From: Phycisphaerae bacterium
Lineage (GTDB): Bacteria > Planctomycetota > Phycisphaerae > Sedimentisphaerales > SG8-4
Assembly (NCBI GenBank): GCA_030613765.1
Contig: JAUWLI010000198.1
Coordinates: forward strand, 1 to 5,982
Reading direction: 5' to 3'
DNA length: 5,982 nucleotides
Shown here: one piece after another, positions 1-5,982 of the stretch
Layout: each line of letters begins with the position of its first letter
How positions within the stretch are numbered: position 1 is the first letter of the stretch
The notes under the pieces: model-generated
Told to the model about the DNA's origin: nothing
Database searches by the model: none
The model's input: only the letters and a program-made list of their open reading frames with translations
Translations under genes and position numbers: made by a program

Positions 1-11
1 ATCTCTACCGT

Positions 12-27
12 TGTAAAGCGCTTTACA
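12..27. promoter_or_regulatory. Perfect 16-bp palindrome resembling a LacI-family operator
   Basis: TGTAAAGCGCTTTACA is identical to its reverse complement. The central AAAGCGCTTT core with TG/CA ends is typical of operators bound by LacI/CcpA-family repressors, which centre on a CG step. No LacI-family gene and no adjacent promoter is visible in the window, so the controlled gene would lie to the left of position 1. A chance palindrome of this length is unlikely, but the binding protein is inferred only from motif style. Confidence 0.4.
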
Positions 28-82
28 GGCACGTAAATCCTTTATTAATCGCAGATTACGCTGATTAAAGGGATTTTTTAAC

Positions 83-142
83 CACGAAGCACACGAAGAG
101 CACGAAGAAAAATTAGACAGGATAACAGGATTAACAGAGATT
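83..142. repeat. Short tandem-unit block 1 (CACGAAG / ACAGGATTA units)
   Basis: CACGAAG occurs three times at exactly 9-nt spacing (starts 83, 92, 101). It is followed by ACAGGATA, ACAGGATTA and ACAGAGATTA-like units at about 9-10-nt spacing (116-142). The units are not coding: the frames are broken by stops. Such CAC-GA-rich degenerate arrays are familiar as dispersed intergenic repeats in planctomycete and other environmental genomes; that comparison is from memory. The block ends three bases before the first TTTTTGCCAGC element. Confidence 0.6.
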
Positions 143-145
143 ATG

Positions 146-260
146 TTTTTGCCAGCTTTGTGTACTTTGCAAAACCTGCTTTTAAAGCCAGCTTTGTCGC
201 AGGTTATTGCCTTCGTCCACAAGGCCATTGAAATGGCCTTTTTCATAAGCCGGCTAAAAA
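146..260. repeat. Structured intergenic element, copy 1 (diverged)
   Basis: It begins with TTTTTGCCAGC (146-156) and ends with GCCGGCTAAAAA (249-260), which pair apart from one A-C mismatch and one bulged T. Inside is a long hairpin: GCAA + AACCTGC (169-179) pairs with GCAGGTT + TTGC (199-210) around one bulged A, and is capped by AAAG/CTTT (184-187/192-195) with a CCAG loop. A second hairpin, AAGGCCAT/ATGGCCTT, lies at 221-240. The layout and several sequence blocks (CGTCC-N5-GCCAT, ATGGCC, CATAAG) recur in copy 2 at 406-527, so I read the two as diverged members of one family. Its role is unknown: mobile repeat, structured RNA or terminator-like element are all possible. Confidence 0.5.
221..243 (+). 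terminator. Possible intrinsic terminator (hairpin plus T run)
   Basis: AAGGCCAT (221-228) and ATGGCCTT (233-240) form a perfect 8-bp stem with a TGAA loop, and five T residues run from 239 to 243. This is the shape of a weak rho-independent terminator reading rightwards and would end transcription entering from the left edge. The same hairpin is also the second arm of structured element copy 1, so its terminator look may be incidental. Confidence 0.4.
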
Positions 261-355
261 CGGTTCTTGTTAGTCGTAAAGATGCACATAATGCACAAAA
301 GCTAACATAAAATGAACAAAAAAGTGGTTTATAAGCACATAAGTAGTTAATTAAC

Positions 356-407
356 CACGGATTTACACAGATTTTCACCGATTTATAGCCACAGAGGGCA
401 CAGAATT
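356..407. repeat. Short tandem-unit block 2 (CACNGATTTW and CACAGA units)
   Basis: Three 10-nt units in register, CACGGATTTA, CACAGATTTT and CACCGATTTA (356-385), are followed by two 9-nt units, CACAGAGGG and CACAGAATT (390-407). The block runs into the TTTTTGCCAGC start of the second structured element, as block 1 does with the first. Unit length and CAC-GA core resemble block 1, but the sequence is distinct. Confidence 0.6.
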
Positions 408-527
408 TTTGCCAGCCGGTGCGGACTTGGCAGCGGCTTTCTCGATACCAGTATCTGCAAAGCCTGCGGCCAGCGTCCGTTGTGCCATCGGGGATGGCCC
501 GCATAAGAATATGCAGGCTGGCAAAAA
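406..527. repeat. Structured intergenic element, copy 2 (multi-hairpin fold)
   Basis: Perfect 12-bp inverted ends, TTTTTGCCAGCC (406-417) and GGCTGGCAAAAA (516-527), enclose three consecutive hairpins. Hairpin A (422-479) stacks CGGAC/GTCCG, TGGC/GCCA, GGCTTT/AAAGCC and GATAC/GTATC. Hairpin B is GCCATC/GATGGC (484-498) with a GGG loop. Hairpin C is GCATA/TATGC (501-514) with an AGAA loop. About 43 base pairs fall within 122 nt, so most bases are paired. It has no useful open reading frame. It could be a structured RNA, or a small non-autonomous mobile repeat with terminal inverted repeats; no target-site duplication is evident. Either strand could be the transcribed one. Confidence 0.55.
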
Positions 528-570
528 GGGATTCTTTATTATCCATTAATACACCAAAATGATCAAAACA

Positions 571-587
571 TTGGCATTTTTTGCCAA
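571..587. repeat. Small hairpin TTGGCA-TTTTT-TGCCAA
   Basis: A perfect 6-bp inverted repeat (571-576 and 582-587) surrounds five T residues. Its right arm reads TTTTTTGCCAA, echoing the TTTTTGCCAGC ends of the two structured elements, so it may be a decayed end of the same family. It stands alone and no function is evident. Confidence 0.3.
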
Positions 588-600
588 ATAATTACGGAAA

Positions 601-628
601 ACAGACTACAGACAACAGACTATAGACT
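601..628. repeat. 14-nt tandem duplication (ACAGACTACAGACA x2)
   Basis: ACAGACTACAGACA (601-614) is followed directly by ACAGACTATAGACT (615-628), with 12 of 14 positions identical. It is the first of three similar-sized two-copy tandem duplications within about 175 bp. Confidence 0.55.
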
Positions 629-655
629 AATGATTAAAATGGCTCCCTGCCTAAA

Positions 656-685
656 GGGTTCCTGTCTACTGGGTCCCTGTCTACA
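656..685. repeat. 15-nt tandem duplication (GGGTTCCTGTCTACT x2)
   Basis: GGGTTCCTGTCTACT (656-670) and GGGTCCCTGTCTACA (671-685) are adjacent and match at 13 of 15 positions. The sequence differs from the duplications at 601 and 747. No coding role: the open frame across it is made of repeats. Confidence 0.55.
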
Positions 686-720
686 ACCTACAGGGATTCG
701 GATACGTGGGCCACGGCCCC

Positions 721-748
721 ACTATTGCGGTTCTCTGCAATCAATAGT
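721..748. repeat. Hairpin ACTATTG / CAATAGT
   Basis: A perfect 7-bp inverted repeat (721-727 and 742-748) has a 14-nt loop. The alternative inner pairing ATTGC/GCAAT (724-728/737-741) is also possible. There is no T run, so it is not a convincing terminator. Confidence 0.3.
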
Positions 749-774
749 ATTTAGTATCTCGTATTTAGTATATA
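747..774. repeat. 14-nt tandem duplication (GTATTTAGTATCTC x2)
   Basis: GTATTTAGTATCTC (747-760) is followed directly by GTATTTAGTATATA (761-774), with 12 of 14 positions identical. AT-rich and non-coding. Confidence 0.55.
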
Positions 775-799
775 GCCGGTTGAGGCCGAGACGACCGGC
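775..799. repeat. Hairpin GCCGGT / ACCGGC
   Basis: A perfect 6-bp GC-rich inverted repeat (775-780 and 794-799) has a 13-nt loop. It follows immediately after the GTATTTAGTAT duplication. Function unknown. Confidence 0.3.
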
Positions 800-830
800 A
801 TTGTTTATTGACCACCTACAGGCGGTTTAC

Positions 831-848
831 GTTTGCCTGCCTGCAAAC
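831..848. repeat. Hairpin GTTTGC / GCAAAC
   Basis: A perfect 6-bp inverted repeat (831-836 and 843-848) has a CTGCCT loop and no following T run. From here to the control region (849-1020) I see nothing beyond A- and T-rich tracts, including an AAAAAAATG/CATTTTTTT inverted repeat at 887-895/907-915. Confidence 0.3.
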
Positions 849-1022
849 ACACAGATATGTTAACAGATTTCCAAACATAAGACAACAAAAAAATGAATAA
901 CAAAAGCATTTTTTTTGGCTGCCCTGAGCGTAATCAATCAAAAGAATCACAATGAATTGCGGTTTTTTTCAACAGGGCCACTGTCCATAGCATTGATTTT
1001 GAGTCAAAAACGGGGATCGATG

Positions 1023-1040
1023 AAAAAATTTCAATTTTTT
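1023..1040. promoter_or_regulatory. AT-rich inverted repeat upstream of the operon promoter
   Basis: AAAAAATT (1023-1030) and AATTTTTT (1033-1040) form an 8-bp inverted repeat two bases apart, about 20 bp upstream of the TTGACA box. The phased A and T tracts look like an UP-type or curved-DNA element that could strengthen the promoter. This reading rests on composition and position only. Confidence 0.3.
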
Positions 1041-1046
1041 TATTTT

Positions 1047-1082
1047 CTACGGGTTTTACCGTTGACAAACTACGGGTTATAC
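1047..1082. promoter_or_regulatory. 13-nt direct repeat in the control region
   Basis: CTACGGGTTTTAC (1047-1059) and CTACGGGTTATAC (1070-1082) match at 12 of 13 positions, with starts 23 bp apart. The second copy lies inside the dyad operator and supplies its left CTAC half-site and its spacer. A second, lower-affinity repressor site overlapping the upstream copy would fit, but this is inference. Confidence 0.45.
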
Positions 1083-1090
1083 AGTAGTTT
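1062..1090 (+). promoter_or_regulatory. Probable sigma70-type promoter of the repressor-sensor operon
   Basis: A consensus -35 box TTGACA sits at 1062-1067. At the standard 17-bp spacing the -10 position is TAGTTT (1085-1090), a weak match. TATACA at 1078-1083 is a better -10 sequence but too close to this -35. Transcription would start near 1097, leaving about 55-60 nt before the ATG. The weak -10 lies within the right arm of the dyad, so a bound repressor would occlude it. Confidence 0.45.
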
Positions 1091-1092
1091 GT
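1065..1092. promoter_or_regulatory. Candidate BlaI-type operator (dyad ACAAACTAC-N10-GTAGTTTGT)
   Basis: The 9-bp arms (1065-1073 and 1084-1092) are perfectly complementary, with a 10-bp spacer. Arm centres are 19 bp apart, about two helical turns, as expected for a dimer of winged helices. BlaI/MecI/CopY repressors bind short dyads with TACA/TGTA-like half-sites; the ACTAC/GTAGT here is similar but not identical. A further pair, TTTACCG (1055-1061) and CGGTAAA (1101-1107), flanks the dyad nearly symmetrically. Position over the promoter and directly before the repressor gene supports autorepression. The binding protein is inferred. Confidence 0.55.
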
Positions 1093-1140
1093 GTTCAAGT
1101 CGGTAAATTGACAAAGGAAATGTTTTTCGAAAAGTTCAAT

Positions 1141-1145
1141 AGGAG
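1141..1145 (+). promoter_or_regulatory. Ribosome binding site of the BlaI-type repressor
   Basis: AGGAG lies nine bases before the ATG at 1155. It is the only good Shine-Dalgarno match nearby and fixes that start; the protein begun there has the right N-terminus for the family. Confidence 0.7.
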
Positions 1146-1154
1146 AACAGTTCA

Positions 1155-1550
1155 ATGGCAAGACCACGTCACAAAAATCCAACCCCGGCGGAGTTAGAAG
1201 TTCTGCAGATTATCTGGGAGCACGGGCCATGCACAGTTAGAGAGGTCATGAATTTGCTAAAGCCTAAACGGCCCAGGGCTTATACATCTGTCATGAGCCT
1301 GATGAATGTTATGGCCGAGAAAGACCTGCTTAATCAGAAGCCCAAAGGACGAGCATTTATCTATTCGGCGAAAGTCTCGCGGGACAAAACTCAGTCCAGT
1401 ATGCTCAGTGACTTACTAAATCGAGCCTTTGACGGCTCTGCAAATGCCCTTGTCGCGCATCTGCTTCAGCAGGCCGAGCCAAACAACGAAGAATTGGGCG
1501 AAATCCACAAAACCATTACCAGGTTTACTCGAAAGAAAGGGAGTGCGTAA
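1155..1550 (+). CDS. BlaI/MecI/CopY-family transcriptional repressor
   Basis: A 131-residue cytoplasmic DNA-binding repressor, close to the family's usual length (about 120-130). Residues 1-72 form the winged helix: helix 1 around TPAELEVLQIIWEHG (10-24), helix 2 TVREVMNLL (27-35), recognition helix RAYTSVMSLMNVMAEKDLL (41-59) and wing QKPKGRAFIYSAKV (61-74). Residues 75-131 match the dimerisation and cleavage region, with the family-typical LLNRAFDGSANALV (87-100). In staphylococcal BlaI/MecI the sensor pathway cleaves at an Asn-Phe pair just after this motif; by eye the aligned pair here is His102-Leu103, so the cleavage residues differ. The start is set by AGGAG at 1141. The stop overlaps the ATG of the M56 gene, the usual repressor-sensor arrangement. 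It probably represses its own operon through the dyad at 1065-1092; other targets are not in the window. No beta-lactamase gene is present, so a beta-lactam role is not supported. Confidence 0.95.
   Translation: MARPRHKNPTPAELEVLQIIWEHGPCTVREVMNLLKPKRPRAYTSVMSLMNVMAEKDLLNQKPKGRAFIYSAKVSRDKTQSSMLSDLLNRAFDGSANALVAHLLQQAEPNNEELGEIHKTITRFTRKKGSA
1537..1543 (+). promoter_or_regulatory. Ribosome binding site of the M56 sensor gene
   Basis: AAGGGAG lies six bases before the ATG at 1550, inside the last codons of the repressor gene. With the TAATG stop-start overlap this indicates translational coupling and supports the chosen start. Confidence 0.65.
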
Positions 1551-4500
1551 TGTCAATAGTTGAATTTCTTTCTCAGCCCCTCTGGCAACGGCTTGGCCTG
1601 ACGTTGGTGCATTTTCTCTGGCAAGGTCTGGCTGTAGCTGTTCTGGTTGGCGTGCTTGTTAGAGTGTTCAGACTAAAGCACGGCAATGCTCGGTATACCG
1701 CTTATGTTCTGGCTTTTATAGCTATGGTCGTTTGCCCTGTAGTAACTTTCACAGCTATTGATATTCCCATAAGTCCCAACACCGAGCTTGTGACAGGAGT
1801 AGAATCAGCCGAGGTTGTTGAAACTTTCTCCTATGCTGCTTTACCTGCAGGTGATATTTTGCCGGAAGCCGAGCCTCCCCCCCCTGCCATGCCGACATTG
1901 GCAGATTCGATTCCGTTGGGCCAGAGAATATCTGACTGGCTGAATGTATCGATGCCCTGGGTTTTGGTGATATGGATGGTTGGGGTCATCGTGCTGAGTG
2001 TGCGATTACTTATGGGATTTGTCGGGGTATATCGCTGGCGTCATCATTTAGAACCGCTGCCGGAAAGATTAGTTCAGCGTATTGTTTCGCTAAGTGAAAG
2101 ACTGCGTATGCGGGGCTTTTCGCGGGTGTTCATATCGCCGACTGTTTTGCAGGCAATGGCTGTAGGCTACTTACGGCCGATGGTTCTGCTGCCTGCGGCG
2201 ATGGTAGCGCAAATGCAGCCGGAGATGCTGGAGGCGGTGATAGCCCATGAATTAGCCCATATTCGCAGGTTTGATTTATGGGTCAATCTAATTCAGCGGG
2301 TGACCGAAACTCTGCTGTTTTATCATCCGGCCGTCTGGTGGCTGTCAAATTGCATCCGGAGGGAACGCGAATTATGCTGCGACGAATTGGCTGTAAAGGC
2401 TACGGGCGAGCGACTGACTTATGCCACAACTTTGGAAAGCGTAGGCCGAGCCAGATTTGTGGCAAAGCCGCCTGTCCTTGCAACGGGATTAGGCCAGGAC
2501 AACAAACCAACATTGGGCCGAGTACGCCATATATTAGGCTTAGATAATAAACGAAAAGATTCACGTTTCTGGCTTGCAGGTGTTATTGCGGTTCTTTTGA
2601 TAATGGCAATTATAATACCAACAGGCTTTGGTTTAATAGGTCGTTTGGAAGATAAACCCGCTGTGCAGGTGTCGGCTCAGGAGCTCGTGGCTAAGATTAT
2701 CGAAAGTGAGAGAAGAATTGAAGACATTCAATTGCACATGACCTGCACTATTCCCGCGAGAAACCTGGTTTTTTACGAGTACGATTGGGGCTATGACAGC
2801 GGCAAAGAATTCTACGCTGGCTTTCAGAATTCCACAAAGCCGGGCCGGAACGAGATTTCAAGGACCACTCAGATAACAAGAGCTTTTGATGGACAAAACG
2901 AATGGAGTTTGAGAGTTTCCTCTGAAGATAAACAGCCGCGCGGAGCGATATTCAAACCGAGTTTCTCTTTACGCTCCACGATGACATTTAACACATTGTT
3001 AGGTTTTGATGCAAAAGAGCGCAGCCGCCTTTCGTTTGGAGAAGCGATAGCTCAGGCAGAATCAATTTCCGTAAGAGATAAGGTTGAATTCATTGACGGC
3101 CATCCTTGTTATGTTATCGAGGCCGTTAATTTGGTAACCGACACTTCGGTCAACTGGGCTTACGATGTTAGAGCATGGATAGATTATCAGAGGGACTACC
3201 GGCTCCTTAAGTTCGAGAAATATCGCAGCATCAGCGGCAAGAACCGCTTCAAGGTAGTCTCCCGGCGAGTGGACAATATCAAGTTAATACAAGTCGATGG
3301 AATTTGGCTTCCTATCGAGGGCAGCCGTACAACTTTCTCCACAAACGATTACGGCCCGCCCAAGGGAATGACGCTTGCGCAGTTTGCAGCTCTGCCTATG
3401 GAAGAGCAAAAGCAAGTGGGCGTCTTTAAGCTAACACCAATGGCGCCACCACGCAGATTAGAGGTTGACGTTAAGAGTATAAGACTTAATAAAGGCATCC
3501 CGCCGGAAAGATTTACCGTAGCTTTCCCCGACGGCTGCGAAGTCTATAACGAGTTTACCGGCAAAAGATATGTAGTAGGTGAGCCGTCCGAGCGGGAGGT
3601 GGCCTTTTCCGACGCCGAGTGGATTGAACAAATGGCGGGGCTTTCAGTAGGCGAGCTGATAGTTATTCTTCGCGACTCGCGTATCGGCAACGAAAAGAAG
3701 AAGTGGTTCGCAGCCGTTCACAGGCTTGTAGAAATCGGATCTACTGCGGTACCGGAGTTGGTTACCGAACTAAGGCGAACAGAGAAACCACAGACTCAAA
3801 GCAAATTGGCCCTTACGTTGAGAGCAATCGGCGATCCCAATGCCGTGCCGGGTTTGATTGACGGCCTTGAACGCAGCGGTTTTTCCAGTGACTACGGAAT
3901 TGGTTATCCCAGGACCGAACTTGATATGTTCTTTAAACAGCATCAATTGGATCCTGCCAGAAAAAGTTTAGGTTTGGCCCGGGCCGTTCGTGAAATCACA
4001 ATAGCCATTGAGAAACTGACCGGCCATACCGAAGGACATGAACATTTCCACGCCTATGATTTGAAGTACGACCGATTGGGCTCTTATACCATAACCCCGG
4101 AAATCAGGGACAGGCAAAGACAACACCGGCGTCAGGTGGCAGAGCGATGGCGCAAGTGGTGGCAGGCCAACAAGGACAATATCAAACCGATCGAAACTCT
4201 CCCAAAACCACCCGCCGAGCCGAAACCCGCGAGATCCGAAAAGCTCGAACAAATGATTATGGCCGCACCGGAAGGCTCAATACTGACTTTGGCTATCGTC
4301 CCGAATGTGGACGGTTCAGGTCGCCGGCCGAGCCTGACTAAAGAGGAATATCAACGGCATGTTGAGGATTTGGCCCGAAACGGACCGTTTGCAGGTTCGG
4401 TTCGTGGAGAAAGCTTCCAATGGTCGCCGATAAAAGGTGACTCCACTCGGTTCAAAGATTTGCCTTTGAGCGCTTATAAAGATCGAAACTATCTGCTGCT

Positions 4501-5982
4501 ATGTGCGCGTGCTCAATACGTAATGGTGCCTGAGCTTGAAGGCAAGTTGGCCTGGGGGCTTGAGAAAGTTGAGACCACCCAGGATGGAGATGGGAAACCG
4601 ACGATAAGTATTCAATTTGATGAAAAAGGCTCCGAACTCCTCTACGAGTTGACCAGAGCTAATATTGGCAATCATCTGGCGATAGCTGTGGACAGTTGGG
4701 TTCTGTCGGCTCCGACTATTGAAACACCGTTGACGAAAAGGGCAATCATCACGGGAGACTTTACCGAACAGCAGATGCGTACATTTGTAGAGGACCTGCG
4801 AAAAGGTATGACGCCGGTAGACCAGCAGACCATAAAAGCAATGCGACTTATTGCCGAAGCAGCCGACAAGTTAAATAAACAGGATGTTGCAAAGATGGGG
4901 CCACGCCGGGTCGTAGAGAATCTTTTTGTTGTTGGACTTTCCGGTAATGTCGAAAAGCTCACTTGGTTCTTCCGCCCCGGCTCAGCTGCCGACGGGGTGT
5001 TCAGCGTCCGTGATTTCGCCCAGATGGCCGACGGCCATAAGATTAAGGTCCTGGAAGTCTACGCCGACAGCAGCGACGCACTGGCAATAACCTCAAACAT
5101 CAAAGGCAAATCCGGTGATCAGGAAGGTCAGCTTGTCTTCTACCTCTCAAATCAAACAGGCACTTGGCTCATATATGACCTCGACGTAGGCGAAGCCGAC
5201 AGGGTACGCGAAAACCTCACTGAGTTCCTAAGTACACACTCCGCTGTGCAGGTTGAGGGGGGAGAAATAAATGTCGAAACTCTCTTGAACAAAGTTCGTC
5301 AGGCACAAAGACCTACTGAAAATATGATAGTAGAATGGCAATCTGAAAAACCCCAGCCGGGATTTTCTTTAGTACCTTCTGGATCACGAAAACCGGACTT
5401 TTCTCCGCCGTCACGAATTTTACAGACCTATAAAGCTATTATAGCAGGCGACAAGTCTCGGATTGAAGAAAGAGAATTGACTTTCCAATCTCAAAAGGAT
5501 ACTGAACCGTCAAGGATAAGAGAGATAACATATGTTTTTGATGGTACTACGCAGAAGCAACTCGACCATTTTGTAAAGGGCTTTGAGAATGAGTATCGTG
5601 GCTATCGACATACGTATGATAAAAATACACAGTTGCTTTTAAAATTGCTCCTGGCTTACCCGCCATACCTGGATTCCCCCGAGCTACAGGAAAAATATAA
5701 TCTAAAGGTTATAGAGAACAAAGAGAAGGGATTAATAACACTGGAGACATCAAAGGAGAATTCCGGTATTCATAGATATACAATCGATCCAGATAAGGAT
5801 TACAACATTGTTAAACAGGAGGTCATTTTACCCAGAGGAACAGACTACGAGATTAATTGTATCGTGAAAAAACAAGCAAATGGGTCATGGTACCAGGTAG
5901 CTCGAGAGAAAATTCGTTATAGCGTAAAAACCGGAAAACCATCTTTAGAAAACAAAGTTAAAATAACAAAACTTGATTTTAA
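1550..5982 (+). CDS. Giant M56 (BlaR1-type) membrane metallopeptidase sensor, C-terminus cut by window edge
   Basis: The frame is open for 1477 codons with no stop; the 3' end lies beyond the window. Residues 1-363 are a typical M56 unit: membrane segments near 16-39, 47-66, 137-161 and 340-363, and a cytoplasmic zinc site with HELAH (233-237) and ERELCCDE (272-279), where Glu274 is the likely third ligand. The family's role is to sense an outside signal and proteolytically trigger loss of the BlaI repressor. After segment 4 comes a predicted extracytoplasmic part (read by eye): LolA-like domain (~376-600); beta-rich piece ending KRYVVGE (~636-680); HEAT-like helices (~695-777) with a WRKWWQAN tail (867-874); proline-rich linker (~882-897); SecDF P1-like domain (~898-1090), the clearest match, with TRANIGN, LSAP and IITGDFT; NTF2-like region (~1090-1235, weak); and a second LolA-like domain (~1242 onward). 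BlaR1 is only ~600 residues with a penicillin-binding sensor, which is absent here. The start is fixed by the TAATG coupling and AAGGGAG. The M56 call is firm; the signal sensed is unknown, with lipoprotein or export status a guess from the modules. Confidence 0.92.
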   Translation, partial: MSIVEFLSQPLWQRLGLTLVHFLWQGLAVAVLVGVLVRVFRLKHGNARYTAYVLAFIAMVVCPVVTFTAIDIPISPNTELVTGVESAEVVETFSYAALPAGDILPEAEPPPPAMPTLADSIPLGQRISDWLNVSMPWVLVIWMVGVIVLSVRLLMGFVGVYRWRHHLEPLPERLVQRIVSLSERLRMRGFSRVFISPTVLQAMAVGYLRPMVLLPAAMVAQMQPEMLEAVIAHELAHIRRFDLWVNLIQRVTETLLFYHPAVWWLSNCIRRERELCCDELAVKATGERLTYATTLESVGRARFVAKPPVLATGLGQDNKPTLGRVRHILGLDNKRKDSRFWLAGVIAVLLIMAIIIPTGFGLIGRLEDKPAVQVSAQELVAKIIESERRIEDIQLHMTCTIPARNLVFYEYDWGYDSGKEFYAGFQNSTKPGRNEISRTTQITRAFDGQNEWSLRVSSEDKQPRGAIFKPSFSLRSTMTFNTLLGFDAKERSRLSFGEAIAQAESISVRDKVEFIDGHPCYVIEAVNLVTDTSVNWAYDVRAWIDYQRDYRLLKFEKYRSISGKNRFKVVSRRVDNIKLIQVDGIWLPIEGSRTTFSTNDYGPPKGMTLAQFAALPMEEQKQVGVFKLTPMAPPRRLEVDVKSIRLNKGIPPERFTVAFPDGCEVYNEFTGKRYVVGEPSEREVAFSDAEWIEQMAGLSVGELIVILRDSRIGNEKKKWFAAVHRLVEIGSTAVPELVTELRRTEKPQTQSKLALTLRAIGDPNAVPGLIDGLERSGFSSDYGIGYPRTELDMFFKQHQLDPARKSLGLARAVREITIAIEKLTGHTEGHEHFHAYDLKYDRLGSYTITPEIRDRQRQHRRQVAERWRKWWQANKDNIKPIETLPKPPAEPKPARSEKLEQMIMAAPEGSILTLAIVPNVDGSGRRPSLTKEEYQRHVEDLARNGPFAGSVRGESFQWSPIKGDSTRFKDLPLSAYKDRNYLLLCARAQYVMVPELEGKLAWGLEKVETTQDGDGKPTISIQFDEKGSELLYELTRANIGNHLAIAVDSWVLSAPTIETPLTKRAIITGDFTEQQMRTFVEDLRKGMTPVDQQTIKAMRLIAEAADKLNKQDVAKMGPRRVVENLFVVGLSGNVEKLTWFFRPGSAADGVFSVRDFAQMADGHKIKVLEVYADSSDALAITSNIKGKSGDQEGQLVFYLSNQTGTWLIYDLDVGEADRVRENLTEFLSTHSAVQVEGGEINVETLLNKVRQAQRPTENMIVEWQSEKPQPGFSLVPSGSRKPDFSPPSRILQTYKAIIAGDKSRIEERELTFQSQKDTEPSRIREITYVFDGTTQKQLDHFVKGFENEYRGYRHTYDKNTQLLLKLLLAYPPYLDSPELQEKYNLKVIENKEKGLITLETSKENSGIHRYTIDPDKDYNIVKQEVILPRGTDYEINCIVKKQANGSWYQVAREKIRYSVKTGKPSLENKVKITKLDF
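1877..1884 (+). repeat. C8 homopolymer inside the M56 gene
   Basis: Eight C residues encode part of Pro109-Pro112 in the loop between membrane segments 2 and 3. The frame before it (start, segments 1-2) and after it (segment 3, HELAH) agree, so this copy is intact. A one-base slip would abolish the protease and all sensor domains. Confidence 0.6.

Follow-up and report, generated by a model that had tools for sequence, protein, structure and literature searches.

A BlaI/BlaR1-type gene pair of Planctomycetota with a mosaic outer segment and a recurring DNA seam at many of its module joints

How does a BlaR1-type protease come to carry a long outer segment built of several domains, and what might such a segment do? 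The question is raised by a stretch of 5,982 nucleotides from a Phycisphaerae bacterium (assembly GCA_030613765.1, contig JAUWLI010000198.1, positions 1 to 5,982), which we call the window and in which the gene of a BlaI-type repressor is directly followed by that of an M56-family protease. At the level of sequence, our analysis finds an M56 core, a BlaI neighbour, two dyads, outer modules that are met again, differently ordered, with other cores, and, at many module joints, a DNA seam about 22 bp long. We consider it probable, if well short of certain, that the locus encodes a proteolytic signalling pair of the BlaI/BlaR1 type, and that its outer part, which probably does the sensing, has been re-assembled by recombination at the seam.

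The blaI stop and the start of the M56 gene overlap by one base in TAATG, and the frame that begins with the ATG at 1550 has no stop up to the window edge (1550-5980, 1477 aa), as the preliminary description of this DNA had it; the stop lies outside the window. That this architecture is not due to chance follows from a second protein, P0002 (1794 aa), which is collinear with window residues 1-1239 at 71% identity. We number related loci L, proteins P and genomes G, and refer to the following parts of the window.

1155..1550, + strand: blaI-type repressor gene, 131 aa (Penicillinase_R, PDB relatives, identity to the BlaI of L003-L005)
1550..2653, + strand: core type 1, M56 protease, residues 1-368, with four hydrophobic stretches and HELAH at 2246-2260 (Pfam, alignment to the BlaR1 structure)
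2654..2670, + strand: seam 1 (AAACCCGCTGTGCAGGT), between the core and module A; where the consensus would have its 3' part, module A begins
2669..3625, + strand: module A, LolA-like, residues 374-692 (Pfam matches of the members of its alignment)
3647..4234, + strand: module B, weakly HEAT-like, residues 700-895 (Pfam, below cut-off)
4262..4816, + strand: module C, SecD P1-head, residues 905-1089 (Pfam; PDB 3aqo)
4826..5245, + strand: module D, MlaC/NTF2-like, residues 1093-1232 (Pfam, below cut-off)
5237..5258, + strand: seam 2 (CACTCCGCTGTGCAGGTTGAGG), from module D to module E (seam motif)
5258..5980, + strand: module E, second LolA-like module, residues 1237-1477+, cut by the window edge (P0021 match; hhalign with module A)

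Core and outer segment compared

Eight related loci were found, all labelled Planctomycetota. Three of them share the core of the window at high identity (L003 78%, L004 84%, L005 81%), and their outer segments differ or are displaced: the window modules are present in L003 with a displacement of about 410 residues, the sole likeness in L004 is a 27% match to module D, and L005 has no outer segment in common with the window at the limits used. The opposite combination is found as well. In the 4347-aa protein of L001 the core is 27% identical to that of the window and window residues 350-1241 recur at 82%, while P0001 joins a core of 30% identity to an outer segment of 87%. Among 414 pairs of proteins with cores at least 70% identical (128 of the 142 proteins had a usable core), 272 have less than 20% of either outer segment matching at 50% identity or more; in the remaining pairs the better outer fraction is 20-80% in 64 and at least 80% in 78. 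Three duplicate proteins were dropped from the protein comparison that included P0001, P0002, P0020 and P0021. Judged by these comparisons, core and outer segment have different histories.

The modules themselves are found with cores of different types. Copies of the representative module W that are 82-89% identical follow each of the core types 1, 2 and 3, with weaker copies elsewhere, and module A stands behind all three at 70-93% identity between representative modules. The mosaic is drawn with such chosen representatives in 27 chosen proteins; automatic clustering of the cut segments, from which P0009, P0003, P0067 and P0110 had been dropped beforehand, merged the majority of modules into a single family, owing to wear in some of the seams. 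Outer segments also differ at what is, by its neighbours, one and the same place. L001, L101, L103 and L104 all adjoin SAICAR synthase (four of four) and in some cases an HD protein, an MFS protein or an upstream frame, and the BlaI proteins of L001, L101 and L104 are 77-86% identical to that of L103. L102 has one of these neighbours, the upstream frame, and BlaI in common with the other four. All five are core-2 loci, each with an outer segment of its own.

Could the joints have been made by the assemblers? All our sources are metagenome assemblies or metagenome proteins, and repeats of about 22 bp, the length of the seam, can confuse small k-mers and so lead assemblers to join unrelated genes. 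Against this, the frame is preserved at 27 of 27 seams that lie inside long frames, P0002 has the core-A-B-C-D order of the window, a D-type (MlaC-like) module is followed by E in both P0020 and P0025, and the core-2 loci retain their shared neighbours. As an account of the mosaic we regard assembly error as very improbable; single joints could be such errors.

That a long M56 fusion would be a rarity is not borne out. In a search restricted to protein lengths of about 812-2585 aa the core matches 1523 proteins at E<=1e-40 among 7995 scored, and long M56 proteins are common in what was searched. Among the 120 matches listed, the outer parts contain, by their Pfam accessions, ankyrin, leucine-rich repeat, HEAT, carboxypeptidase-regulatory, PDZ, thioredoxin and other domains. 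In each of the eight relatives' genomes there are between 1 and 14 M56 places, whose open frames span 221-4353 aa. At the upper end of this range of places is one Sedimentisphaerales metagenome-assembled genome, G007 (L007, L140-L150), with 14 M56 places, frames up to 4101 aa and no seam. In L003, around 15097-15164 and near the end of its 2387-aa frame, an undetermined base is followed by an overlapping 1100-aa frame with related modules; the assembly may therefore show this gene shorter than it is. What sets the window protein apart is the build of its outer segment and not its mere length.

The seam

What, then, lies at the joints? At many of them, and on either side of modules, we find the same element of about 22 bp, AAR-NCC-GMT-GTG-CAG-GTT-GAG-G, which is read as K(T/P/S)(D/A)VQVEG. 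QVEG occurs 29 times in 18 of the 142 proteins, against 2.4 occurrences expected; up to seven seams lie in one protein (L001), and seams span three core lineages. For 32 seam motifs in 12 frame pieces, including one poor match at L001 residue 2794, the DNA is at hand. Valine is GTG in 29 of 30 cases and glutamate GAG in 22 of 23, CAG is used in 31 of 32 and GTT in 25 of 32, aspartate is GAT in 19 of 19, threonine ACC in 15 of 15 and proline CCC in 11 of 12, and GCT is found in 9 of 10. Because the bases that change a residue vary (ACC, CCC, TCC; GAT, GCT) and the synonymous bases are almost fixed, this codon pattern reads as the mark of conserved DNA, beyond conserved protein alone. The codon statistics treat the seams as independent although they are not, and P-values are therefore not used as probabilities. 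The mean share of the majority third base is 0.96 in VQVE and 0.62-0.79 in five of six other short motifs with 4-10 copies each. In 371 pairs of seams whose flanks are unrelated to either side, 1467 of 1820 identical residues also have the third base in common.

Of the 31 seams compared, 20 have distinct upstream and 24 distinct downstream flanks. Positions -9 to +13 are strongly conserved and those up to +18 less so; outside, conservation is near zero, save for a little at -15. Where module A starts, in three loci, DNA identity to the window is 0.32-0.35 upstream of the seam and 0.73-0.98 downstream, and at the end of module D, in one locus, it is 0.82-0.93 before the seam and 0.17-0.33 after it. 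DVEQKTD is continued by VQVSA in L001 and by VQVEG in L005, just as EDKPA is continued by VQVSA in the window and by VQVEG in P0028. Because the sequences part there, the exchange would have taken place inside GTGCAGGT. As to when, the fraction of identical residues that share their third base is 0.54-0.92 over seven module comparisons (0.84 for window and L001 and 0.79 for L001 and L105, each pair having different core types; 0.54 for window and L002). For the cores of the window and L004 the value is 0.78, by which measure some of the exchanges are fairly recent.

One could also imagine ordinary domain shuffling, by rare illegitimate or homologous events, in which the linker K(T/P)DVQVEG is kept for the sake of the protein, as a flexible joint or a protease site, and the DNA has no role. 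Inter-domain linkers are often conserved, most breakpoints are not at seam motifs, and the agreement of 0.84 and 0.79 between core types implies events recent enough for the seams to be, perhaps, young copies. However, a linker kept for the protein sits poorly with seams in which the amino acid varies (T/P/S, D/A) and the synonymous position stays fixed, with third bases that agree between seams of unrelated flanks, and with the greater variation of five of the six control motifs. We think shuffling of this kind unlikely, while granting it serious weight.

Over ten genomes the 13-bp seam core CCGMTGTGCAGGT has 32 places, with a match in eight of the ten, and the reversed control has none. Five of these places are chance and 27 are in-frame seams, which belong to M56 proteins or to the outer-module frames of two core-less contigs (G004:C39 and G002:C216). 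An exact search of eight genomes for GTGCAGGTTGAG gives 17 places, where the reversed pattern gives 2; all but 2 of the 17 are seams that lie in frame within long frames. The 20-mer AARNCCGMTGTGCAGGTTGA, searched in a class sample, has 13 places and its control 0. Of 154 clustered breakpoints, 26 are no more than 10 aa away from a seam motif; 500 random draws gave 5.2 on average and 12 at most.

Two seams lie very near the end of their frames, 5 residues before it in L001 (residue 4343) and 8 in L101 (residue 1755), as if they were open ends for modules. Nine seams are within 45 aa of a C-terminus, some of them perhaps in cut proteins.

We also looked for mobile carriers. Phage carriage was rejected, the two viral seam matches being in the same kind of gene, judged from its setting to encode a capsid protein, and due to chance; so was plasmid carriage, where both of two matches are to the SecD-like part and one is annotated secD. 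An integron origin is not supported either, the integrase being above its cut-off in one of ten genomes.

Might the modules nevertheless be cassettes, with the seam as the site of a dedicated recombinase, integron-like or other? The recurrence of a single short site at many joints, which preserves the frame in 27 of 27 cases inside long frames, would suit such a system, as would the near-terminal seams of L001 and L101, which resemble open ends for new modules, and a crossover that seems restricted to GTGCAGGT. Yet conserved flanks or arms are missing beyond about -16 to +18, the viral contigs have no relative of the outer segment and the plasmids only the two SecD-like matches, the integron integrase is confined to one genome, and no recombinase is tied to the loci, the integron integrase being the only one searched for. 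A dedicated site-specific system of this kind appears to us quite improbable.

Several findings weigh against recombination at the seam in a signalling pair. Most of the clustered breakpoints, 128 of 154, are not within 10 aa of a seam motif; some of these show worn seams (PDVHVE, PDVQIK), and others resemble the ends of local alignments inside modules. The core-A joint of P0002 has no clean seam. The sixth control motif, with 4 copies, reached a majority third base of 1.0 and is as invariant as the seam. The seam is rare, the 20-mer being found in 6 of 397 class-sample genomes, one of them by chance (G292), and G006 and G007 have none, though G007 has 14 M56 places; in 11 frames from those places no seam-like repeat was seen, the 15-mers present in at least 3 places being one intra-frame repeat. 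The integron integrase TIGR02249 is above cut-off in one of ten genomes, whose completeness is not given. No BlaI target besides the pair's own promoter stood out in five genomes, with either the strict or the looser form of the operator dyad discussed below, and to these points we add the metagenomic origin of every sequence.

With these points counted in, we still favour recombination at the seam, by which modules would be gained, lost and exchanged in frame, with the crossover inside GTGCAGGT; recombination between short identical repeats would be the default mechanism. A bolder proposal, which we put forward as doubtful, is that in a subset of Planctomycetota a specific recombination activity recognises the seam and rebuilds the outer part of BlaR1-type proteins from a shared pool of modules. 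If true, this would amount to intron-free exon shuffling, in which inputs are exchanged between lineages and protease, repressor and operator stay fixed.

Protease, repressor and probable input

The preliminary description had proposed an intact M56 zinc-protease core paired with a normal BlaI-type repressor, and both hold. Peptidase_M56 matches residues 124-327 at 103.4 bits (cut-off 31), the HExxH motif is HELAH at residues 233-237, and residues 139-357, with the region of the downstream glutamate, align to the S. aureus BlaR1 structure 8exs; profile, HExxH and glutamate place the protein in the M56 family (PF05569). Hydrophobic stretches resembling membrane helices lie at 19-37, 52-70, 138-156 and 345-363, with a weaker one at 202-220, and beyond residue 363 there is a single weak peak, at 902-920, just ahead of module C. 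The repressor, whose gene adjoins the M56 gene, matches Penicillinase_R at 102.4 bits (cut-off 22.6), which makes it a member of the BlaI family; it has PDB relatives in 1sd4 (penicillinase repressor) and 1okr (MecI) and is 94.6-95.4% identical to the BlaI of L003, L004 and L005. The protein is not a BlaR1 equivalog: blaR1_generic gives 73.6 bits against 400, over residues 137-361 only. Pfam gave no match to a penicillin-binding (class D-like) C-terminal domain in the window frame (up to 5982) or in the frames of L001-L007, and beta-lactam sensing is rejected on this ground; the outer segment is, as far as Pfam sees, without the single penicillin-binding sensor of BlaR1/MecR1, as had been claimed.

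The earlier list of modules (LolA-like, HEAT-like, SecD-P1-like, NTF2-like and second LolA-like) is also upheld, though A, B and D stay under the curated cut-offs. SecDF_P1_head matches residues 1007-1087 (56.4 bits, cut-off 27), with 3aqo as PDB relative. Module A alone, taken as residues 372-690, matches LolA_like weakly (E 0.008, below cut-off), and eight of the nine members of its alignment match it at E<=0.1, the best at 1.1e-5. The HEAT assignment of module B is weak (E 0.0033, below cut-off), and module D matches MlaC at E 8e-5 with 22.9 bits, under the cut-off of 26. Module E matches no Pfam family; aligned profile to profile with module A (hhalign) it gives 96% probability and E 2e-9, from an E alignment of 4 sequences only, where the control pairs A-D and D-E give 1% and 0.1%. 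It is 84% identical to residues 362-615 of P0021, where it stands directly behind the core, and in P0020 the last module extends about 42 residues beyond the equivalent of the window end, reaching another seam.

Two occurrences of these modules lie behind other domains. P0005 (1208 aa) carries modules A-D, 45% identical, behind an extracytoplasmic function (ECF) sigma factor in place of an M56 core, with no clean seam listed. At L008 6825-9239 module A (50% identity) is found behind an arylsulfotransferase (ASST) domain, and module A therefore also occurs outside M56/BlaI-type signalling pairs.

Ahead of blaI lie two dyads, the first of which was picked up as a 16-nt repeat of the second.

1047..1064, + strand: dyad O1, CTACGG-N6-CCGTTG, probable BlaI operator, conserved, overlapping TTGACA (1062-1067)
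1070..1087, + strand: dyad O2, CTACGGGTTATACAGTAG, probable BlaI operator, 23 bp from O1, conserved

Both are kept with small changes in six of six aligned blaI upstream regions, the window included, and autoregulation of the blaI-M56 operon is likely. A stricter sigma-70 scan gave no promoter, and Rfam at gathering thresholds gave no match. Upstream, in window 1-1046, no convincing gene was seen, the open frames there having been checked for repeats only, with no database search. In four of five relatives the strict dyad has one place per genome, near the own M56 gene; it is absent in G006. With up to 3 mismatches the dyad is less frequent than its reversed control in G003 (32 vs 55), G004 (33 vs 37) and G005 (72 vs 162) and more frequent in G006 (50 vs 40) and G007 (73 vs 51). 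Among the looser matches listed, which included none from G004 or G006, only those in own pairs are free of mismatches. A wider regulon was thus rejected, the strict dyad giving own promoters only, in four of five genomes, and the looser one no consistent excess over control; there may be weak extra targets.

If BlaI controls little else, is the outer segment perhaps cargo, a periplasmic multi-domain protein that a circuit on its own promoter raises when needed? The strict operator found only near the own M56 gene in four of five genomes would fit, and so would the restriction, among the looser matches listed, of mismatch-free ones to own pairs and the likeness of the modules to working periplasmic proteins. 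On the other side, P0005 has an ECF sigma factor ahead of modules A-D, the corresponding place in S. aureus BlaR1 holds the sensor (PMC9834060), and the genomes are metagenome bins, in which targets can be missed. We judge cargo to be rather unlikely.

We prefer to see the outer segment as the input of a signalling pair, for which P0005, with modules A-D behind an ECF sigma factor, provides support. The segment would lie outside the inner membrane and read a signal from the envelope, as is suggested by the resemblance of some outer domains to carriers of lipids or lipoproteins. By analogy with BlaR1, this signal would pass to the M56 site and control it; the M56 site would then cut BlaI, and the cut would switch on the blaI-blaR1 operon, if not more. 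In this way new inputs could be given to a protease and a repressor that are themselves conserved. The earlier idea of a sensor with a different input gains from outer domain types known from the periplasm and from P0005; the part that concerns the input itself is still inference.

Comparison with known systems

The nearest relatives in function are the BlaR1/MecR1-BlaI/MecI systems of S. aureus, which have the same M56 gluzincin core (HExxH...E), membrane helices, an outer C-terminal segment, which in BlaR1 is the sensor, and a BlaI-family partner (PMC9834060). Set beside them, the window also has dyads ahead of blaI. Unlike BlaR1/MecR1, its outer segment is more than four times longer and consists of exchangeable modules, and no penicillin-binding sensor was found in the window frame or L001-L007. 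A pair of this type with another input has a precedent in PetP/PetR of cyanobacteria, a BlaR1-family protease with a BlaI-family factor that responds to copper, not beta-lactams; the available part of the source does not mention modular outer segments (PMC7896320). As a corollary, annotation should not make antibiotic sensors of the BlaI/BlaR1-type pairs in these bacteria.

How do such exchanges compare with known ways of moving domains? In integrons, gene cassettes form a row with a short site at every joint; the cassettes are whole genes, and the attC-type site is a long imperfect palindrome. In the window, by contrast, the modules are parts of one reading frame, and the integrase is over cut-off in one of ten genomes. 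More generally, that a bacterial receptor can change its input without losing its output has mostly been inferred from end products. Here the joint itself is visible: one DNA element recurs at many module joints, and the sequences next to it match to one side and diverge to the other, even between orthologous loci. Domain exchange thereby becomes directly testable in one receptor family. Our results suggest that bacteria can re-equip a receptor by swapping pieces of a gene in frame, with no introns. Neither a seam of this kind nor a mosaic build of M56 outer segments was found described in the open-licence literature, outside which most subscription papers lie.

The nearest precedent is DOMO, described for HsdS of Helicobacter pylori, where target recognition domains change place inside a gene or pass from one gene to another, probably by way of short DNA repeats that flank them; in a Type IIG case these are 21 and 19 bp long, and the paper leaves the recombination machinery open (PMC3077401). 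Short DNA repeats at the ends of exchanged domains are what DOMO and the window share. In DOMO the domains are of one kind, belong to restriction enzymes and have a different repeat on each side, x and y (PMC3077401), an arrangement that the window does not have. Here, the modules of a membrane receptor differ in fold and are joined by a single seam.

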